Position numbers and translations under genes: made by a program. DNA of 64,000 bases from an uncultured Acidimicrobiales bacterium. Its GTDB lineage: Bacteria > Actinomycetota > Acidimicrobiia > Acidimicrobiales > SZUA-35. Positions within the stretch are counted from its first letter, which is position 1; every line of letters begins with the position of its first letter. Positions 23,554 through 32,110 of this stretch are shown piece by piece. The notes under the pieces are model-generated. The model saw only the letters and a list, made by a program, of their open reading frames with translations. It searched no databases and was not told where the DNA came from. The stretch covers positions 198,958 through 262,957 of the forward strand of contig CALAJQ010000009.1 in NCBI GenBank assembly GCA_937922785.1. The letters are read 5' to 3'.

Positions 23554-24639
23554 CTAGTACTCCGGTGGCCAGTCATGCACCTTTGTTTCACCGTTCTTGA
23601 TTGACAGGTCAACACACTTTGCATGCGATGCCAGTTGATCTCGAAGCGAGTAGTCATGGGTGGTCACCCAAACTTGGCTGAACTTAGAGGCTCCAAGTAT
23701 CAGTGGAGCCAATGCGTCAACAGCCCCGGGATGCAAGCTGCTTTCGGGCTCGTTCAGCACTAGCAGTTCGGGCGGCCGGGTCGATAACAATGCCGTTGCC
23801 AAGCACAAGAACCGAAGCTGACCGTCGGACAATTCAGAACCTGTAAGTGGTCGGTTGAGCCCTGGCGCTTTCATCCCAACTGAGAAGATGCCGGGCGATG
23901 GAATATCCAGGTGTACCGAGTAGCCGGGGAAGGCCGACCCGACTGATTCCGACAGCGCCCTCATGTCTCCGCGTTCGGCGATGGTGGCGATGGCTGCGCC
24001 GAGGTCATCGCCGGTTGGACTTAATGCATCTACCCGAACACCAGGCTGTGGCCGGCGGGACTTGGCCGAAGGTGATGAATCGAACTGGTGGTAGAAACGC
24101 CACCCACCAAACGTGTTACGCAGCGAGCTGATTTCGGGGTAGAGGCTTGGGTCGCCGATCTGGCTGAGGATCGATTCGGCCGGGTTGAGCACGGCGGCGT
24201 GCATGGTTTGTGTGCCTTCTGAGCTGGTTAAGGTCGCCGAAGCTTTTGAGCGGTCAACGACGGTCATCTTCTTTGTGCGCTTCAGCCCGTAATAGACGTA
24301 TTCGTCTTTGATTTCGGGGTCAAGCACAAACGGCGTTCCGAGGCCGCTTTGCATCAAACCGGCCGCCAGCTCCAGCGTCAGGTCATCTAGGACCGCGGTG
24401 AACTTCATCCGTACGTGCCCCTTGCCACGCTTGCCCGCCCAAAGCGCCGACGGCATCCCGCCCTCGGCTAGCAAAGCCGTGCTTAGCTGGCCGGCGGCCG
24501 ATGCTTGAAGTAATCGCAGGGCGTTGTACAGGTTGCTCTTGCCCGACCCGTTCACTCCGGTAACCACTGTGAGCTGTTCGAGGTTCAAGTAGACGTTGCG
24601 CAGCGAACGGTAATTCTCGACGTGCAGTTGACGAAGCAT
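23554..24639 (-). CDS. RecF/SMC-like AAA ATPase (AAA_21 type)
   Basis: The 361-residue protein opens 'LRQLHVENYRSLRNVYLNL' and has Walker A 'GVNGSGKSNLYNALRLL', an ABC-type signature 'ELSDGQLRFLCLATALL' and Walker B 'ELLVLNEPESSLHP', with the H-loop in 'VWVTTHDYSL'. This is the COG4637/AAA_21 layout without a long coiled coil. Relatives act in DNA repair or as parts of OLD-like defence systems, but no TOPRIM or partner nuclease is adjacent. Function unknown. Confidence 0.85.
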   Translation of the reverse strand: MLRQLHVENYRSLRNVYLNLEQLTVVTGVNGSGKSNLYNALRLLQASAAGQLSTALLAEGGMPSALWAGKRGKGHVRMKFTAVLDDLTLELAAGLMQSGLGTPFVLDPEIKDEYVYYGLKRTKKMTVVDRSKASATLTSSEGTQTMHAAVLNPAESILSQIGDPSLYPEISSLRNTFGGWRFYHQFDSSPSAKSRRPQPGVRVDALSPTGDDLGAAIATIAERGDMRALSESVGSAFPGYSVHLDIPSPGIFSVGMKAPGLNRPLTGSELSDGQLRFLCLATALLSTRPPELLVLNEPESSLHPGAVDALAPLILGASKFSQVWVTTHDYSLRDQLASHAKCVDLSIKNGETKVHDWPPEY

Positions 24640-25712: not shown

Positions 25713-25730
25713 TTTAAGTTGGGTCTAAGT
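25713..25730 (+). promoter_or_regulatory. Candidate SARP operator (heptamer direct repeat) of the large regulator
   Basis: TTTAAGT (25713-25719) is followed after 4 bp by TCTAAGT (25724-25730), an 11-bp period. SARP regulators are known to bind direct heptamers spaced 4 bp apart near the promoter. The site lies 64 bp before the SARP gene start and so suggests autoregulation. A related pair is found before the secreted HExxH gene. Confidence 0.55.
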
Positions 25731-25793: not shown

Positions 25794-28700
25794 ATGGAGT
25801 TTCGAGTTCTTGGGAAGTTGGAGGTTTTTCGCGATGGCGAAGCCGTGAACCTCGGCTCGTTCCGTCAGCGGTCACTGCTGGCGCTCCTACTTTGTGCGCC
25901 GAACTCGGTCTTATCGACGGACCAGATTATCGACAGCCTTTGGGGTGATGACGGTGGGCCAGACAAGCAGAACGCCTTGTGGGTCTATGTGTCGGGGATT
26001 CGGAAAGCGCTTGAGCCTGATCGTCCCAAACGAACCGACGGAACCGTTCTTCTCACAAGGTCGCCTGGCTATCTGGCCGAGGTAGACCCCGATTCGGTCG
26101 ATTCGTTACGGTTTGAGCGGTTGGTGGTTGAGGGCCGGGCACTGATCGACACTGACCCTGCGGCTGCGGCGATCGTGCTTGGCGAGGCCCTGTCGTTGTG
26201 GCGGGGTCGCGCATTTGAGGAATTCACCTACGAATCGTTCGCCCAGATCGAGATCGGGCGGCTCGAAGAGCTTCGGGTTGAAGCTGTCGCGGCCCGAATC
26301 GAAGCAGACCTGCGGTGTGGCCGTTCACGCGAGCTTGTGTCCGAGCTCGAAACGTTGGTGAAGCAGCATCCCCATCGCGAAGAGTTTTCGGGCCAGTTGA
26401 TGTTGGCGCTTGCAAGGTCTGGCCGCCAGGCCGAGGCACTTCGGGTATTTACCGACCTGCGGGCGAGGCTCGTGGAAGAACTGGGCGTGGATCCCGGGCC
26501 TGCAGTTACGCGTATCCACGACGAAGTTCTTGCCGGGATGGACACCTCAATCTCGGGTGGGCTTTCCGGTGAAGTGAGCCCGTCGGCCGGGCTGGCAATC
26601 CGCGGTTATGAACTGCGGGAGAAGTTGGCCGAGACCGAGTCCTGGGTGTCGTTCAGCGCTTACCAGCCCGCGGTCGGCCGTGAAGTGGTGATCAAGGTTT
26701 GTCGTCCTGCCCGTGCCAATGACCCAGACTTCATTCGCCGCTTCGAAGCCGAAGCCAAGCAGGTCGCCCAGCTTGAGCACCCCCACATCGTGCCGCTCTA
26801 TGACTTCTGGCGAGAACCAAACGCTGCATACCTTGTGACAAGACGCGTTGGTGGCGGAAGCCTTGCCGACGTAATTGAGTCTTCAGCGCTGACGCCCGCC
26901 GATTCGGTCGGTGTTCTCGAACAGATTGGTAGCGCACTGTCGTTGGCCCATCGCTCGGGCGTTGTCCATCACGACATCTCACCAGCGAACGTTCTGTTTG
27001 ATGTGGAAGGCAACGCGTACGTGTCGGACTTTGCCATAGGTGACGCTGACTCCGGCTCTTCAAGCGCGGCCGACGTCGACCTGGACATCTCTGACCTGGG
27101 TTCAGCCATCGCGCAAGCTTTGACTGGGCTTTCCGGTGAGGCCGAACAAATCCGTGGTGCTTTGCCAGCGACGGCACGCGCTGTTATCGATCGCGCCACT
27201 ATTGCTGAACCTGGTGACCGCTATAGCGACGTCAGCTCGTTTGTTCACGACTTCCGAGTAGCAGTAGGCCCTCCCAGCGTTTCTCTAGAGCTCCCGATAG
27301 CTGCTGACACTCCCAACCCGTACAAAGGACTGCGGTCATTCGGCGGCCCCGACGCGTCTGATTTTTTCGGGCGAGAGCGCCTTGTTGAACGGCTGTTGGC
27401 AGCTTTGGGTCAGCCCGGTCTCGGTGGCCGCTTTGTAGCCGTGGTCGGCCCAAGTGGCAGCGGAAAATCCAGCGTCGTTCGGGCCGGTGTACTCCCTGCT
27501 TTGCGTCGTGATGCGCTGCCCGGCTCCTCTGACTGGTTCAACGTAGAGATGACCCCAGCACCTCACCCGTTCGAGTCACTTGAAGAGGCCTTATTGGCCG
27601 TAGCGGTCAGCCCTCCGCCTTCGCTAATCGATGTCTTGGTGGGTTCTGAACATGGGATCGATCGTGCCGTTCGTGCAGCGTTGCCCGACGACGGATCACA
27701 GCTGCTTCTGGCAATAGACCAGTTTGAAGAACTCTTCACCCAGGTTGACCAGGCCACATCGCTACAATTCATCGACTCGTTGGTTGACGCCGTAACGGCC
27801 AAACACAGCCGGGTTCGAGTAGTTGTCACTTTGCGAGCAGACTTCTATGACCGTCCGCTTGGCCACGCCCGCTTAGGTGAGCTGCTGCGTGACGGCACAC
27901 AGGTGATCACGGCCATGAACGCCGAGCAGCTCGAACGGGCGGTCGCTGGCCCGGTCGAACAGTTCGCCATTACATACGAACCGTCGCTGATAGCTCAGCT
28001 GGTGACAGACGTGGCCGACCGCCCCGGCGCTCTTCCGTTGTTGCAATATGCCCTGACCGAACTCTTCTCACAGCGCAAAGGAAACCAGATCACAAGTGCT
28101 GACTACGCCGAGCTTGGGGGCGTGTCCTGTGTGCTCTCCAAGCGGGCCGAGGGGCTTCTCGCCGCGTTGCCAGCGGGTGCTCACGATGTCGCTCGCCAGG
28201 TTTTCCTACGGCTTGTAACGGTCGGAGTTGATGCGGATGATACGCGGCGACGAGTTCTTCAGAGCGAGCTGGAGGCTTTGCAGGTCGATCGGTCGATCTT
28301 GGATTCGGTGCTTGCTTCATTCGGGCGCCGTCGCCTGATCAGCTTTGACAGAGACCCAGTCACCCGCAGCCCAACGGTAGAAATCTCCCACGAAGCCCTC
28401 TTGTCCGAGTGGGACCGGCTGGCCGGATGGATCGACGCGGCCCGGTCCGACCTTGTCAACCAGCGCCGGTTGGCTGAGGCGCTGGCCGAATGGAACGCGA
28501 GTGACCGTAGGGCTGACTTCTTGCTCAGCGGCGGCCGCCTCGACGAGCTGCACGGTTGGTCGACCGATTCGGCGATGATGTTGTCTGCGCCTGAGGCTGA
28601 CTTTCTCCAAAAGAGCCTTGCCGCAAGACACAACGCAATCGAAGCCGAACGACAACAGGAGAAGATCACTGCCGAGGCGATTCGAAACGAAGGCCAGCGA

Positions 28701-31349
28701 CGCAAGCAGCTAGTCGGCGTGGGTTTGGTTGCAGCCTTAGTTTCCGCTCTCGCGATATTCGGCATTTTCCAGTGGCGCACGGCGTCCAGCGAGCGGGCCA
28801 ACGCAGAAGCTTCCGCGCAAATGGAGGAAACCGCTCGCCGTGTTGCCGACAATGATCGTGAACGGCTTCAGATCGTTAACCAGAGCAATGAACTGGTGAC
28901 GCTCTCAAACGTCGCGTTGGCCACTGGCGACCCCGACCTTGCATTGGCCTACGCCGTGGAAGCCCTGCGGATTTCGGTCAACAACCCACTCACGTTTGAC
29001 CAATCGCTCGACGCAACGCACTGGGCGCTCCAAGCCCTAGGCGCACAGTACGACGTTGGGCCCGACGTTCAGGTGGTGGTGCGACCCGGTCCAGCCGGGC
29101 TTACTGGCGTGTTTGTCATTCCGGCCGACGAGATGATCGAACTTGCCGAGCGAACTAGCGACCGTCGCCTGACCGACAGCGAATGCGAGGCAGTCTTCGG
29201 AGATGGTTGTCAGACGGTCGAACCACTTCCGGCGGGGGCATCCGGCTATCGAGAAACCACAGGCGTTGGACCAATAGCCTCAGACGTACTTGCTGGCACA
29301 TCAGTGACCGTTTCGCAGTTCTCAATCGAAGTTGACCCGGCGCTTGAGGCCGAGTTCGAAGCCTTCACCGACGCAACTGGAATCAAAGTAGACCTCCAGG
29401 AGAGCACGTCCGCGAACGACCTGGACCGCTTCCTTTCTGGCGAGATTGCTCGACCCGACGTTGCAGTAATCGGCGGTCCGGTGCAATGGACGCAAGAGCT
29501 TGCCTTAGACCTAGGCACATTCCTAGACCACGGAACCTTGCGCTCGGATTTTGGCGACTACGCACTGAACCTCGGAGCCTTACGACCGGGCACTGCGGTG
29601 GCTGAAATAAACGAAGTGGCAACATCCATCCCGATAAACGCCAGTTTCGACAGCCTGGTTTACTACCCGAAAGGGGCCTTCGACGCTGCCGGCTACAAGG
29701 TGCCGGAATCGTTGGAAGAGCTATACGAACTCTCCCAACAAATGGTGGCAGATGGCCATACGCCTTGGTGCTTCAGCTTCAAGTCCGGCTACCCGTTTAA
29801 TGGTTGGCCGGGAACAAACTTGATGGAAAGTTTGGTGCTTCGCTTCGGCGGCGTCGAAACCTATGACGCTTGGATGGCAGGCGAACTTTCTTCAACGTCA
29901 CCGTCTATTGCCGAGGCCGGTCGGTATGGCGACTCTTTGCTGTTTGGCGAGGGCTTCGTGAGAAACGGGTCGGCATCGATTACTGCCAACGAGTTCCCCG
30001 CCGACATGCTGTTCCTGCTCAACCGAGACGCCGTCACCAACGAAGTGGACCCCCAATGTTGGTTGCTTCACCAGGCCGACTTCATGTACGGAACGGTGCC
30101 CCCAGGAAACACTCCCGGGGTAGATCTCGATCACTTCATTCTTCCTCCGGTAACCGCAGGCGAACAGGCGCCCACTAAGGCTGCCCTGTCCACAGCAACC
30201 GCTCTTACCGATCGCCCCGAGATCCGAGTGTTTATGGAATATCTGGCCAGCCCAGAGTTCGGAACAACCTGGGCTGCCCAACCAAACTCAAGGTTCGTTC
30301 CTGTCAACCGACGCTTTGATGGGTCGGCTTTCGGACCGGCGGGTGACGTGGTGGCCGATAGTCGGCGAGGCACCGCCGAATGGCTGGCCCAAGCGATTAA
30401 TTCAGATGCGATGCGCGTGGATGCTTCTGATCACATGCCGCCCGAGATTGGCGGCATCACTGAAGACGGCGCACCTGGCGTGTTCTACCAAGGAATGGTC
30501 GACTGGGCTGATGGTGTGCGAACCATCGACGAAGTATTGGCGGCCATGGATGCCGCATGGGAAGAGTGGCGGCTAGCGAACCCGCTTGGAGATGAGGGCC
30601 CTATTCCTGACGAGGCAGGTTCTCCCGATACTGGGTCTGATGTCGGGTCAAGTCCTGTTGACGATGGCCCGGTTGAACCGCCGGTGCCGCTTGGACCCGA
30701 TGGCGTCTACGCAGTTGAGGAGTTTCCTGCTGGCCCGCAGGCTCCCGGGACTTACCGCAGCGACATCCTGGGCACGCCAATAACGGTGACTTTGGAGGGC
30801 TCCTGGATATCGCCGCATAGCATCCCCGGTCACACTGTGTTTATTGATCCGGAGTCGCTGAGCGTTGGTGACCGTGACGTCACCTTTTTGCGGCCCTATG
30901 TGCTGGCGGACCCGACAGATCCCGGGGCGGCGCCCGCGCCTGGAGTCCTTCGACCGGCTGAGAACATCGAGGAATGGCTGGATACTTTGGTTGACGGAAT
31001 CGTCACCGGAGGTCCGGAAACTGTTGTCATTGGGGGCCGCGAAGCCGTTTATTTCGAGGCCCAAATTACCAATACCGAGGTTTGTGGGACATTCCTTTGG
31101 TGTGCCGGCTTTATTGCCAATACGGTCGACGAACAAGGCAACATAAGCGGCTGGAGTTTCGATCCAGGGACCCGTCAACGAGTCTGGTGGATTGATCAAG
31201 GTGATGAGCAACCACTTGTGATTATCGCTGCGACAAGGAGCGGCGACACGGGATTTGAGACTAGGGCTGACGAGCTGCTGGACTCGCTGATTATCGGCGA
31301 CCCACAGCCGCATCCGGTATCTCGCGCAGATTCGGGTCTCTCACAGTAA
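25794..31349 (+). CDS. Transmembrane SARP-kinase-nSTAND-solute-binding regulator
   Basis: The protein has 1,851 residues from ATG 25794, chosen for the strong GGAGGGAGGG just upstream. In order: a SARP DNA-binding plus BTAD domain (1-250, 'MEFRVLGKLEVFRDGE', 'LGVDPGPA'); a protein-kinase-like domain (about 265-460) with VIK lysine near 300, catalytic-loop 'HHDISPANVLF' near 391 and DFA in place of DFG near 411; an nSTAND1 NTPase (about 510-900) with 'NPYKGLRSF', Walker A 'GPSGSGKSS' near 551 and 'LAIDQFEELF' near 637; a TM helix (about 971-993); an extracellular solute-binding-protein fold (about 1164-1595); and a unique secreted C-terminal domain (about 1620-1851) after a Pro/Gly/Asp linker. 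It looks like a one-protein receptor that could couple an outside ligand to transcription. Kinase activity is uncertain. Confidence 0.88.
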   Translation: MEFRVLGKLEVFRDGEAVNLGSFRQRSLLALLLCAPNSVLSTDQIIDSLWGDDGGPDKQNALWVYVSGIRKALEPDRPKRTDGTVLLTRSPGYLAEVDPDSVDSLRFERLVVEGRALIDTDPAAAAIVLGEALSLWRGRAFEEFTYESFAQIEIGRLEELRVEAVAARIEADLRCGRSRELVSELETLVKQHPHREEFSGQLMLALARSGRQAEALRVFTDLRARLVEELGVDPGPAVTRIHDEVLAGMDTSISGGLSGEVSPSAGLAIRGYELREKLAETESWVSFSAYQPAVGREVVIKVCRPARANDPDFIRRFEAEAKQVAQLEHPHIVPLYDFWREPNAAYLVTRRVGGGSLADVIESSALTPADSVGVLEQIGSALSLAHRSGVVHHDISPANVLFDVEGNAYVSDFAIGDADSGSSSAADVDLDISDLGSAIAQALTGLSGEAEQIRGALPATARAVIDRATIAEPGDRYSDVSSFVHDFRVAVGPPSVSLELPIAADTPNPYKGLRSFGGPDASDFFGRERLVERLLAALGQPGLGGRFVAVVGPSGSGKSSVVRAGVLPALRRDALPGSSDWFNVEMTPAPHPFESLEEALLAVAVSPPPSLIDVLVGSEHGIDRAVRAALPDDGSQLLLAIDQFEELFTQVDQATSLQFIDSLVDAVTAKHSRVRVVVTLRADFYDRPLGHARLGELLRDGTQVITAMNAEQLERAVAGPVEQFAITYEPSLIAQLVTDVADRPGALPLLQYALTELFSQRKGNQITSADYAELGGVSCVLSKRAEGLLAALPAGAHDVARQVFLRLVTVGVDADDTRRRVLQSELEALQVDRSILDSVLASFGRRRLISFDRDPVTRSPTVEISHEALLSEWDRLAGWIDAARSDLVNQRRLAEALAEWNASDRRADFLLSGGRLDELHGWSTDSAMMLSAPEADFLQKSLAARHNAIEAERQQEKITAEAIRNEGQRRKQLVGVGLVAALVSALAIFGIFQWRTASSERANAEASAQMEETARRVADNDRERLQIVNQSNELVTLSNVALATGDPDLALAYAVEALRISVNNPLTFDQSLDATHWALQALGAQYDVGPDVQVVVRPGPAGLTGVFVIPADEMIELAERTSDRRLTDSECEAVFGDGCQTVEPLPAGASGYRETTGVGPIASDVLAGTSVTVSQFSIEVDPALEAEFEAFTDATGIKVDLQESTSANDLDRFLSGEIARPDVAVIGGPVQWTQELALDLGTFLDHGTLRSDFGDYALNLGALRPGTAVAEINEVATSIPINASFDSLVYYPKGAFDAAGYKVPESLEELYELSQQMVADGHTPWCFSFKSGYPFNGWPGTNLMESLVLRFGGVETYDAWMAGELSSTSPSIAEAGRYGDSLLFGEGFVRNGSASITANEFPADMLFLLNRDAVTNEVDPQCWLLHQADFMYGTVPPGNTPGVDLDHFILPPVTAGEQAPTKAALSTATALTDRPEIRVFMEYLASPEFGTTWAAQPNSRFVPVNRRFDGSAFGPAGDVVADSRRGTAEWLAQAINSDAMRVDASDHMPPEIGGITEDGAPGVFYQGMVDWADGVRTIDEVLAAMDAAWEEWRLANPLGDEGPIPDEAGSPDTGSDVGSSPVDDGPVEPPVPLGPDGVYAVEEFPAGPQAPGTYRSDILGTPITVTLEGSWISPHSIPGHTVFIDPESLSVGDRDVTFLRPYVLADPTDPGAAPAPGVLRPAENIEEWLDTLVDGIVTGGPETVVIGGREAVYFEAQITNTEVCGTFLWCAGFIANTVDEQGNISGWSFDPGTRQRVWWIDQGDEQPLVIIAATRSGDTGFETRADELLDSLIIGDPQPHPVSRADSGLSQ

Positions 31350-31401: not shown

Positions 31402-31419
31402 CTTAAGTCAGGCTTAAGT
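31402..31419 (+). promoter_or_regulatory. Candidate SARP operator before the secreted HExxH gene
   Basis: CTTAAGT at 31402-31408 and CTTAAGT at 31413-31419 are identical heptamers with 4 bp between them. The pattern and period equal those upstream of the large SARP gene. The site lies 44 bp before the next start. This makes the HExxH gene the best candidate target of the neighbouring regulator. Confidence 0.55.
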
Positions 31420-31462
31420 AACCAAAGGTCAGCTCAAAGTCGACTGTTTGACAGTCGAAGGC

Positions 31463-32110
31463 ATGTGGAATCACGTGCTTGGAACAGTTATCGGATGTGG
31501 GCTTCTTGTGGTCGGCTCAGTAACGACGACCGCGCCTGCTGATCCTATTCAGCCGATAGCTCTGGTTGCCGAGGCGCCCGTTGCCGAGGCTCCGGTCGAA
31601 CCGGCGGCTGTTGAGCTTGTTGACATGAATTCAGAGATGACCGAGATGGCCAACTGGGCATTGGACCTGTTTGACCAGGCCCAGCTCGAACTGCCCCCGA
31701 TGCGCTTCGTTCACCACCAGGGTGACCGAGAGCCATGCCGTGGCCGAGACGGCCTACATCGCCTGGTCGATGGTGTAAGCGTCATCGAGGTGTGTGCGAC
31801 CGAGGCCACTTTCCCAACCCAAGTCATGATCCTGCACGAAACCGCCCACGCATGGGTTGGTCATCAGTTAACCGACGAGCGCAAGGCCGAGTTCAAAGAC
31901 TTACGAGGCTGGGAACACTGGCGAGACTACGAAGCGGCAGCATGGCACGACAACGGCACCGAACAGGCAGCTGAAATCATGGTGTGGGGTTTGATAGATC
32001 GCCCGCTTCGGATGGTGCGAATCTATGACACGACCTGTGCTGATCTCGAGGCCGGGTATTCAACTCTCACTAGTGAACCACCACTTCACGGCTTCCGCGA
32101 CTACTGCTAA
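31463..32110 (+). CDS. Secreted HExxH zincin-like protein
   Basis: The protein is about 215 residues from ATG 31463 (a TTG at 31448 is in frame). A signal peptide ('HVLGTVIGCGLLVVGSV') is followed by an Ala/Pro/Val/Glu linker. The core has 'VMILHETAHAWVGHQL' with His125, Glu126 and His129, a zinc metalloprotease signature. Downstream 'EQAAEIMVWGLID' could supply the third ligand. Several cysteines suggest disulfides outside the cell. It lies 98 bp after the SARP receptor stop and has a matching SARP-type repeat. Substrate unknown. Confidence 0.72.
   Translation: MWNHVLGTVIGCGLLVVGSVTTTAPADPIQPIALVAEAPVAEAPVEPAAVELVDMNSEMTEMANWALDLFDQAQLELPPMRFVHHQGDREPCRGRDGLHRLVDGVSVIEVCATEATFPTQVMILHETAHAWVGHQLTDERKAEFKDLRGWEHWRDYEAAAWHDNGTEQAAEIMVWGLIDRPLRMVRIYDTTCADLEAGYSTLTSEPPLHGFRDYC

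Follow-up and report, generated by a model that had tools for sequence, protein, structure and literature searches.

In the window, by which we mean the whole 64,000-nucleotide stretch of DNA analysed, a single frame without an internal stop at 25794-31349 encodes a predicted receptor of 1,851 residues, as the first-pass annotation had read it. The order of its domains is wHTH, BTAD, kinase-like domain, nSTAND1, one transmembrane segment (TM), a solute-binding domain (SBP) and an extra C-terminal domain. Two putative operators and the gene for a secreted HExxH protein, termed here the partner, belong to the same locus:

25713..25730, forward strand: putative SARP operator 1, TTTAAGT-n4-TCTAAGT, 63 bp before the receptor ATG (pattern search)
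25794..31349, forward strand: receptor gene, 1,851 aa (open frame)
25863..26531, forward strand: SARP module, OmpR-type wHTH (aa 24-93) and BTAD (aa 102-246) (Pfam; AfsR structure)
26577..27293, forward strand: kinase-like domain, probably a pseudokinase, about aa 262-500 (Pfam match 287-416; motif table)
27318..28514, forward strand: nSTAND1 NTPase, aa 509-907, Walker A GPSGSGKSS, Walker B LAIDQFEE (Pfam, E 1e-109; motifs)
28710..28766, forward strand: single transmembrane segment, aa 973-991 (hydropathy; segment at the same place in relatives)
28767..29333, forward strand: outer helical stub and R.LT..EC..YF....C-like motif (the C-terminus of propeller-type relatives)
29346..30569, forward strand: solute-binding domain of sugar ABC type, aa 1185-1592 (Pfam matches of orthologues; profile)
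30747..31319, forward strand: extra C-terminal domain, fold without match, aa 1652-1842 (alignment; common to Bmp-type receptors)
31402..31419, forward strand: putative SARP operator 2, CTTAAGT-n4-CTTAAGT, 43 bp before the ATG of the peptidase-like gene (pattern search)
31463..32110, forward strand: partner gene, secreted HExxH zincin-like protein, 215 aa (HETAH at 31835-31849)

A TTG 75 bases upstream of the ATG is a possible alternative start for the receptor gene; we prefer the ATG at 25794 because a GGAGGGAGG stretch precedes it and because the operator would otherwise be intragenic. The order of domains given by the first-pass annotation was right, on the evidence of Pfam for the cytoplasmic half, of hydropathy and, for the SBP, of the orthologues. 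A false join of two genes, which it had named as a danger, is ruled out, since independent contigs carry the identical order. Its overall interpretation stood in part: the order, the TM, the SBP and the heptamers hold, whereas the role of the kinase and the supposed uniqueness of the C-terminal domain and of the architecture do not.

Domains of the receptor

The N-terminus has the make-up of a SARP, in which an OmpR-type wHTH (Trans_reg_C, aa 24-93, Pfam E 1.8e-10) is followed by a BTAD (aa 102-246, Pfam E 9e-47), and the module matches the AfsR structure 8hvr with an E of 8.2e-32. We compared the receptor within a set of 15 full-length SBP-type genes, the window gene included, of which 12 contain a kinase-like domain and three (L193-L195) do not. 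The nSTAND1 domain is a STAND NTPase core with both Walker motifs; Walker A is present as G..G.GK in 15 of the 15 genes, and the Walker B pattern is seen in 14, the one in which it was not found being L191.

The Pfam match of the kinase-like domain (Pkinase, aa 287-416, E 2.3e-19) covers profile positions 16-145 of 263 only. The window protein keeps Lys301, Glu320 and Asp394, and the motifs of a Hanks-type Ser/Thr kinase (G-loop, HRD, DFG) are not found in it: the G-loop is without glycines, HHD replaces HRD and DFA replaces DFG. Among the 12 SBP-type receptors with a kinase-like domain, the full motif set occurs only in L009, the sister of the window receptor in the chassis tree. The other ten each deviate in at least one motif, with HGD and DFA in the L190 trio, HGD and GFG in L191, HGD in L192 and L199, HGG in L196-L198, and no Lys in L188. 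HGD alone need not abolish kinase activity. Since the motifs are intact only in L009 and the domain is missing in L193-L195, kinase activity falls outside the shared mechanism. The annotated kinase-like domain is present, but judging from its motifs it is probably a pseudokinase here and of no conserved enzymatic role; an active kinase is ruled out for the window protein on this evidence. An alternative is phosphorylation signalling by a receptor Ser/Thr kinase that has the SARP and NTPase parts as its substrates or helpers. This would suit the clear kinase fold, the three residues kept and the intact motifs of L009; the altered motifs of the window, the Lys lost in L188 and the three receptors that lack the domain make this reading very improbable.

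The segment at 973-991 (mean Kyte-Doolittle 2.58) is the only hydrophobic one in the receptor and is preceded by RRK, and in relatives a similar segment comes directly after nSTAND1 and is flanked N-terminally by basic residues. By the positive-inside rule these basic residues place the DNA-binding half inside, which agrees with the topology first proposed, a single TM with an inner DNA-binding half, as a prediction. A protein that joins a DNA-binding domain to one or more TMs within one chain is by definition a transmembrane transcription regulator (PMC10269533), and the receptor is built in this way. In a profile search, 24 of 96 non-SBP rows carried the motif R.LT..EC..YF....CP, and in every case only 0-13 residues separated it from the frame's end; L076, among the 24, is a short frame with the motif directly after the stub. 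In the SBP types, by contrast, the motif sits between the helical stub and the SBP, with both cysteines invariant in 16 rows. The SBP thus comes after what in propeller-type proteins is the end, and the propeller is gone.

Querying Pfam with the whole receptor gave no SBP match, and the SBP region of the window alone scored 26.0 bits with SBP_bac_8, below the cut-off of 27; it is through the orthologues that an SBP_bac_1/8 domain, as expected of a sugar ABC SBP, is recognised. Two orthologues score above the SBP_bac_1 cut-off in their outer halves (E 1.3e-11 and 1.8e-12), and this family matched 14 of the 54 outer halves scanned, 15 of the 54 being of SBP type by alignment. A profile of 16 outer halves matched sugar ABC binding proteins in the PDB (best E 4.4e-16, 2hfb), and also a xylo-oligosaccharide binder and AcbH. 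The orthologue and PDB matches together support the sugar-type SBP that had been claimed for the outside, and we take it to be AglE-like in kind. Stand-alone proteins in plasmid records match the SBP at about 25-32% identity in the 12 rows listed from 31 records. One annotated relative lies on Sinorhizobium meliloti pSymB, where two sugar permeases and an alpha-glucosidase come after it, and a second lies after a LacI regulator and before transporter genes and an amylosucrase; from these two settings, the ligand is most likely an alpha-glucoside-like sugar. The window SBP lies on a long branch of the SBP tree (0.89), and given this and the score just under the Pfam cut-off its ligand may differ from that of its relatives, or may have been lost.

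We also considered that the SBP might be a docking or scavenging domain and that a different protein, for instance a sugar ABC transporter or the secreted peptidase, would be the true input. The chassis does carry very different outer parts (propeller, SBP, Bmp, and Bmp plus SBP_bac_3), which would fit such a role. Against it, no sugar transporter family was matched in the ten neighbouring window ORFs scanned (four of them matched nothing, and one AAA_21 gene gave a weak ABC_tran match), and the gain of unlike binding-protein families at the same position argues for binding as the common trait. We judge docking to be quite unlikely.

None of the 15 other SBP-type outer halves in the alignment has the extra C-terminal domain, and of the 395 class genomes only 6 were found to carry it. 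It had been called unique, wrongly, as it recurs in the nSTAND1-TM-Bmp proteins L048, L049 and L209. It has no match in Pfam or NCBIfam and one chance-level row in the PDB (E 1.6), its single-sequence model has a pLDDT of 37.6, and profile comparison with the partner protein gave nothing. The same domain is found in L177-L181, proteins of 400-720 aa of which most have a hydrophobic segment and none another clear Pfam domain; one of them sits in the own genome (G000:C14).

The putative operator and the partner gene

The two heptamer sites noted in the first pass are real and form one putative SARP-type operator, CTTAAGT-n4-CTTAAGT. A heptamer with a 4-nt spacer, that is, 11-bp spacing, is the classical SARP site (PMC5930380), and tandem heptamers 11 bp apart are present, in silico, in the target promoter. 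The pattern has an expectation of 0.03 in shuffled windows, and the 4.9 Mb of the own genome contain two exact sites only, both at the receptor locus. Searching 11 whole genomes with YTTAAGNNNNNBYTAAGB returned 19 rows, equal to 12 distinct places because palindromic sites are counted on both strands, with 10 for the backward control. Ten of the 12 places are just upstream of SBP-type receptors, one is before the partner and one is elsewhere (G203:C4); as 11 of the 12 were known before the pattern was written, the presence at receptors is partly circular, while the near absence elsewhere is not. G029, G412 and G379 gave no exact match, and the variant box of L009 (G029), CTTATGT, was missed by the pattern.

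With start codons assigned from the alignment of the BTAD start, the box lies 55-74 bp before the start in 11 of the 12 kinase-containing SBP types, a result reached by 0 of 300 single-base shuffles; the one without a box is L199. Three independent cases found through the partner only (L240, L259, L263) score 12/14 at 52-82 bp before the start (0/300 shuffles), and L059, also independent of the pattern definition, has a box of 12/14. L264, which is truncated, kinase-containing and partner-linked, has a weak box (10/14; 9/300 shuffles). No comparable box was found in the three kinase-less SBP types (L193-L195), four Bmp types and ten propeller types tested, among which the best was L266 (10/14; 12/300 shuffles). 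Being kept in kinase-containing SBP types and without match in the others, the box follows a chassis subclade. When up to two mismatches were allowed, the own genome gave 46 rows against 99 in the control, so weaker boxes are not enriched; no clear box precedes the L009 partner gene itself (9/14; 28/300 shuffles), and no -10 element was made out by eye beside the operator. An inverted repeat, TCGACTG-TTTGA-CAGTCGA, is found at 31440-31460, just before the start codon of the peptidase-like gene.

STAND NTPases are common in defence, and two genes upstream of the receptor an AAA_21 ATPase (23557-24639) resembles HEC-01A-type defence models, both of which would speak for a role in anti-phage defence or immunity as an Avs-like STAND sensor. 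All of the PADLOC matches listed (25 of 32) fall on the kinase region of the receptor only, on which ground we rejected a defence system, and the receptor's effector is of the transcription-factor kind and has an operator of its own. We give the immune reading hardly any credence.

The partner is, from its sequence, a secreted zinc-peptidase-like protein, with peptidase activity as its putative function. The HExxH of zincins, two cysteines and E-x-A-A are invariant in 13 aligned homologues. Pfam gave no family at cut-off, although a few weak zincin-type matches cover the HExxH, and NCBIfam gave no family at all. The model built from four sequences has a mean pLDDT of 66.7. A second comparison of it with known structures gave mainly zincins, at Z 6-8, which is too low to distinguish relatives from common arrangements, and its Foldseek search gave no E under 0.001, with unrelated folds mixed in. 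Homologues stand beside L009 (58%), L188 (45%) and L192, L197, L199 and L190 (31-36%), and by profile the partner is adjacent to 11 of the 15 SBP-type receptors. The four without it are two inner members of the L190 array, L194, where the contig starts 167 bp upstream, and L195. It is found beside 2 of 42 other BTAD proteins, truncated ones included, in one copy in the own genome and in at least one copy in 43 of 395 class genomes. Among the best 30 partner loci, 20 neighbour a BTAD gene or receptor end, one of them about 1 kb away; nine of these 20 had supplied the profile, leaving 11 of 21 new loci. The regulators paired with it include propeller, Bmp and soluble NB-ARC-TPR types, and since BTAD regulators without any outer part are among them (L262, L270, L277), the partner is not specific to receptors. 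A partner-type HExxH domain occurs within longer frames of about 500-700 aa in L256, L257 and L249.

A conserved neighbour with an HExxH motif, whose predicted model weakly resembles zincins, would be consistent with regulated proteolysis, by which the cytoplasmic half would be freed after sensing as a soluble AfsR-like activator and the HExxH protein might trim the outer half. Given the pairing with regulators that have no outer part, cleaving the receptor cannot be the general role of this family, and we regard this explanation as unlikely.

Spread of the family and its outer sensors

We searched 148 related genomes, 395 genomes of the class and 296 across the phylum; receptor counts are lower bounds, as few candidates were scored per genome and the best rows listed. 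In the related genomes, L009 is 55% identical over residues 1-1591 and L010/L188 42% identical over 1-1592, and both end at the SBP and have no extra C-terminal domain. A class search with a profile of TM plus SBP (A1) found the nSTAND1-TM-SBP order in at least 12 of 395 genomes, the own one included (G000, G379, G462 with three in tandem, G296, G337, G385, G242, G373, G203, G341, G214 and G412, the receptor of G379 being a fragment ended by the contig end), in addition to two nearer relatives. The phylum-wide set added two more long frames, in G696 and G579. Many of the closest named relatives are Acidimicrobiia assemblies, and locus L101 is from Ilumatobacter, which makes Acidimicrobiia the likely source of the window.

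The architecture is not unique either: it is one outer-sensor type within a wider BTAD-nSTAND1-TM family. The propeller is the commonest outer part (33 of 54 outer halves of BTAD proteins scanned), and Bmp-type outer parts were found in L048, L049, L265 and L266 and, by BLAST, in L209. The frame L266:4907-6640 has two different outer ligand domains, Bmp and SBP_bac_3, the latter in the place that the extra C-terminal domain takes in L048 and L049. Two SBP domains per frame are seen in L183 and L208, and two adjoining SBP genes in L184.

A tree of 83 nSTAND1 rows spreads the SBP types over several places. The window receptor groups with L009, L190, L191, L192, L188, L200 and the truncated L263 (91/95); L196-L198 group with the truncated L259 and have a propeller-type sister group (fork 96/91); L194 groups with Bmp types (99/92). 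The seven SBP changes (five forced) on the chassis tree overstate the swaps, because its 12 truncated rows are labelled separately; in this tree 'PROP' is the default for untruncated rows that are neither SBP nor Bmp, and the Bmp label of L025 comes without a domain result of its own. In the tree of SBP domains, a single origin is not rejected (p-AU 0.548). The outer sensor appears to have been swapped more than once in the family.

Locus L190 (G462:C122) consists of three tandem SBP-type receptors, each with its own operator, with one divergent peptidase-like gene at the head. The cytoplasmic domains of the trio are 71-86% identical and the SBPs 49-53%, whereas the SBPs of the same-genus sets L191/L192 and L196/L197/L198 are 77-93% identical, about equal to their cytoplasmic domains. 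The pattern of the trio is what sensor divergence after duplication would be expected to look like. In the BTAD-kinase-nSTAND1 proteins L094, L110, L112, L128 and L132, about 200 additional residues separate the BTAD from the kinase. L201, L202, L203, L205, L206 and L207 are TM-SBP proteins with some 250-640 aa before the TM and no Pfam domain there, possibly another class of SBP receptors.

Proposed mechanism and known systems

From these observations, we hypothesize that the receptor is a ligand-gated, membrane-anchored, one-chain SARP-STAND activator that controls itself and the secreted peptidase, a reading that we hold to be reasonably probable. The outer SBP would bind a small molecule, most likely the alpha-glucoside-like sugar, and binding would change the helical stub next to the membrane. 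The signal would pass through the single TM, whereupon nSTAND1, by analogy with AfsR, MalT and other STAND proteins, would leave its resting state and take up ATP. The freed SARP head would then bind the two 11-bp-spaced CTTAAGT heptamers found here and recruit RNA polymerase to the receptor's own promoter and to the adjacent zinc-peptidase-like gene, in a short, nearly private circuit, with the kinase-like domain as a scaffold rather than an enzyme and the outer sensor as an exchangeable module. As PMC10936776 reports, the NTPase and TPR parts of AfsR inhibit its SARP domain and ATP binding relieves the inhibition; the closed state of STAND proteins is described in PMC6468293 as held by sensor contacts, and membrane-bound transcription regulators are described as common in PMC10269533.

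The activator model is supported by the domain order and TM conserved in the 15 full-length SBP-type genes, the Walker motifs, the near-private operator, the partner in 11 of 15, the sugar SBP matches and the AfsR precedent. Weighing against it are the sub-threshold score and long branch of the window SBP; the box that is missing in L199 and L193-L195, weak in L264 and unclear at the L009 partner; the lack of enrichment of weaker boxes; the pairing of the partner with regulators lacking an outer part; and propeller-type relatives with the same chassis, whose outer part is no usual small-molecule binder.

A wider proposal, which we put forward only tentatively, is that these proteins would form a modular receptor class of Actinomycetota, parallel to two-component systems, in which the outer module (propeller, sugar SBP, Bmp, or Bmp plus SBP_bac_3) is exchanged on a STAND-SARP chassis. 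The SBP branch would be a closed private loop, with one operator type driving the receptor and a secreted zinc peptidase by which the signal is produced or removed. The tandem paralogues of L190, within one genome, show how sensors diverge while the chassis stays nearly constant.

The locus bears on how STAND proteins could report on the outside of a bacterial cell and on which signals the many large SARP-NTPases of environmental actinobacteria receive. It offers a complete, testable case, with a predicted ligand class, an 18-bp operator almost unique in its genome and a defined target gene; the natural sensor swaps could guide the building of reporters, and a secreted HExxH family without a name would gain a regulatory setting.

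AfsR and the other large SARPs (SARP-NOD-TPR) share with the window receptor the N-terminal wHTH-BTAD, the STAND-type NTPase behind it and the 11-bp-spaced heptamer operator. They differ in having a tentative TPR sensor, whereas the window receptor adds a kinase-like domain, a TM and an outer solute-binding domain. The DNA-binding domain of ToxR and CadC is a wHTH. Transmembrane regulators of this type (PMC10269533) likewise unite a DNA-binding domain, a TM and an outer part in one chain, but the window receptor has a STAND NTPase and a kinase-like domain between DNA-binding head and membrane. The main text of that source mentions neither SARP, BTAD nor solute-binding, and the main text of a SARP review (PMC10972967) contains neither 'membrane' nor 'transmembrane'. 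In the open PMC literature, we found no paper pairing nSTAND1 with BTAD and none with at least four of the terms SARP, BTAD, transmembrane, solute-binding and NTPase.

Closer in build are the BTAD-kinase-nSTAND1-TM-propeller proteins of Actinomycetota and Chloroflexota, which have the whole cytoplasmic half, the TM, the helical stub and an EC..YF....CP-like motif in common with the window receptor; they differ in their outer beta-propeller and in that the motif, where found, is C-terminal, whereas in the window receptor the SBP comes after it. The nSTAND1-TM-Bmp proteins (L048, L049, L209, L265, L266) share the NTPase and TM, and a BTAD is present in all except L048, which is cut before it; the four complete ones have no kinase-like domain, and their outer domain is PnrA/Bmp, not a sugar SBP. 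The sugar ABC SBPs resemble the outer domain in sequence, but the window domain is tethered to a receptor behind a TM and has no transporter genes beside it. The parts are known singly, from AfsR, STAND proteins and ToxR-like regulators; their combination with an exchangeable sensor, an operator and a partner looks new.
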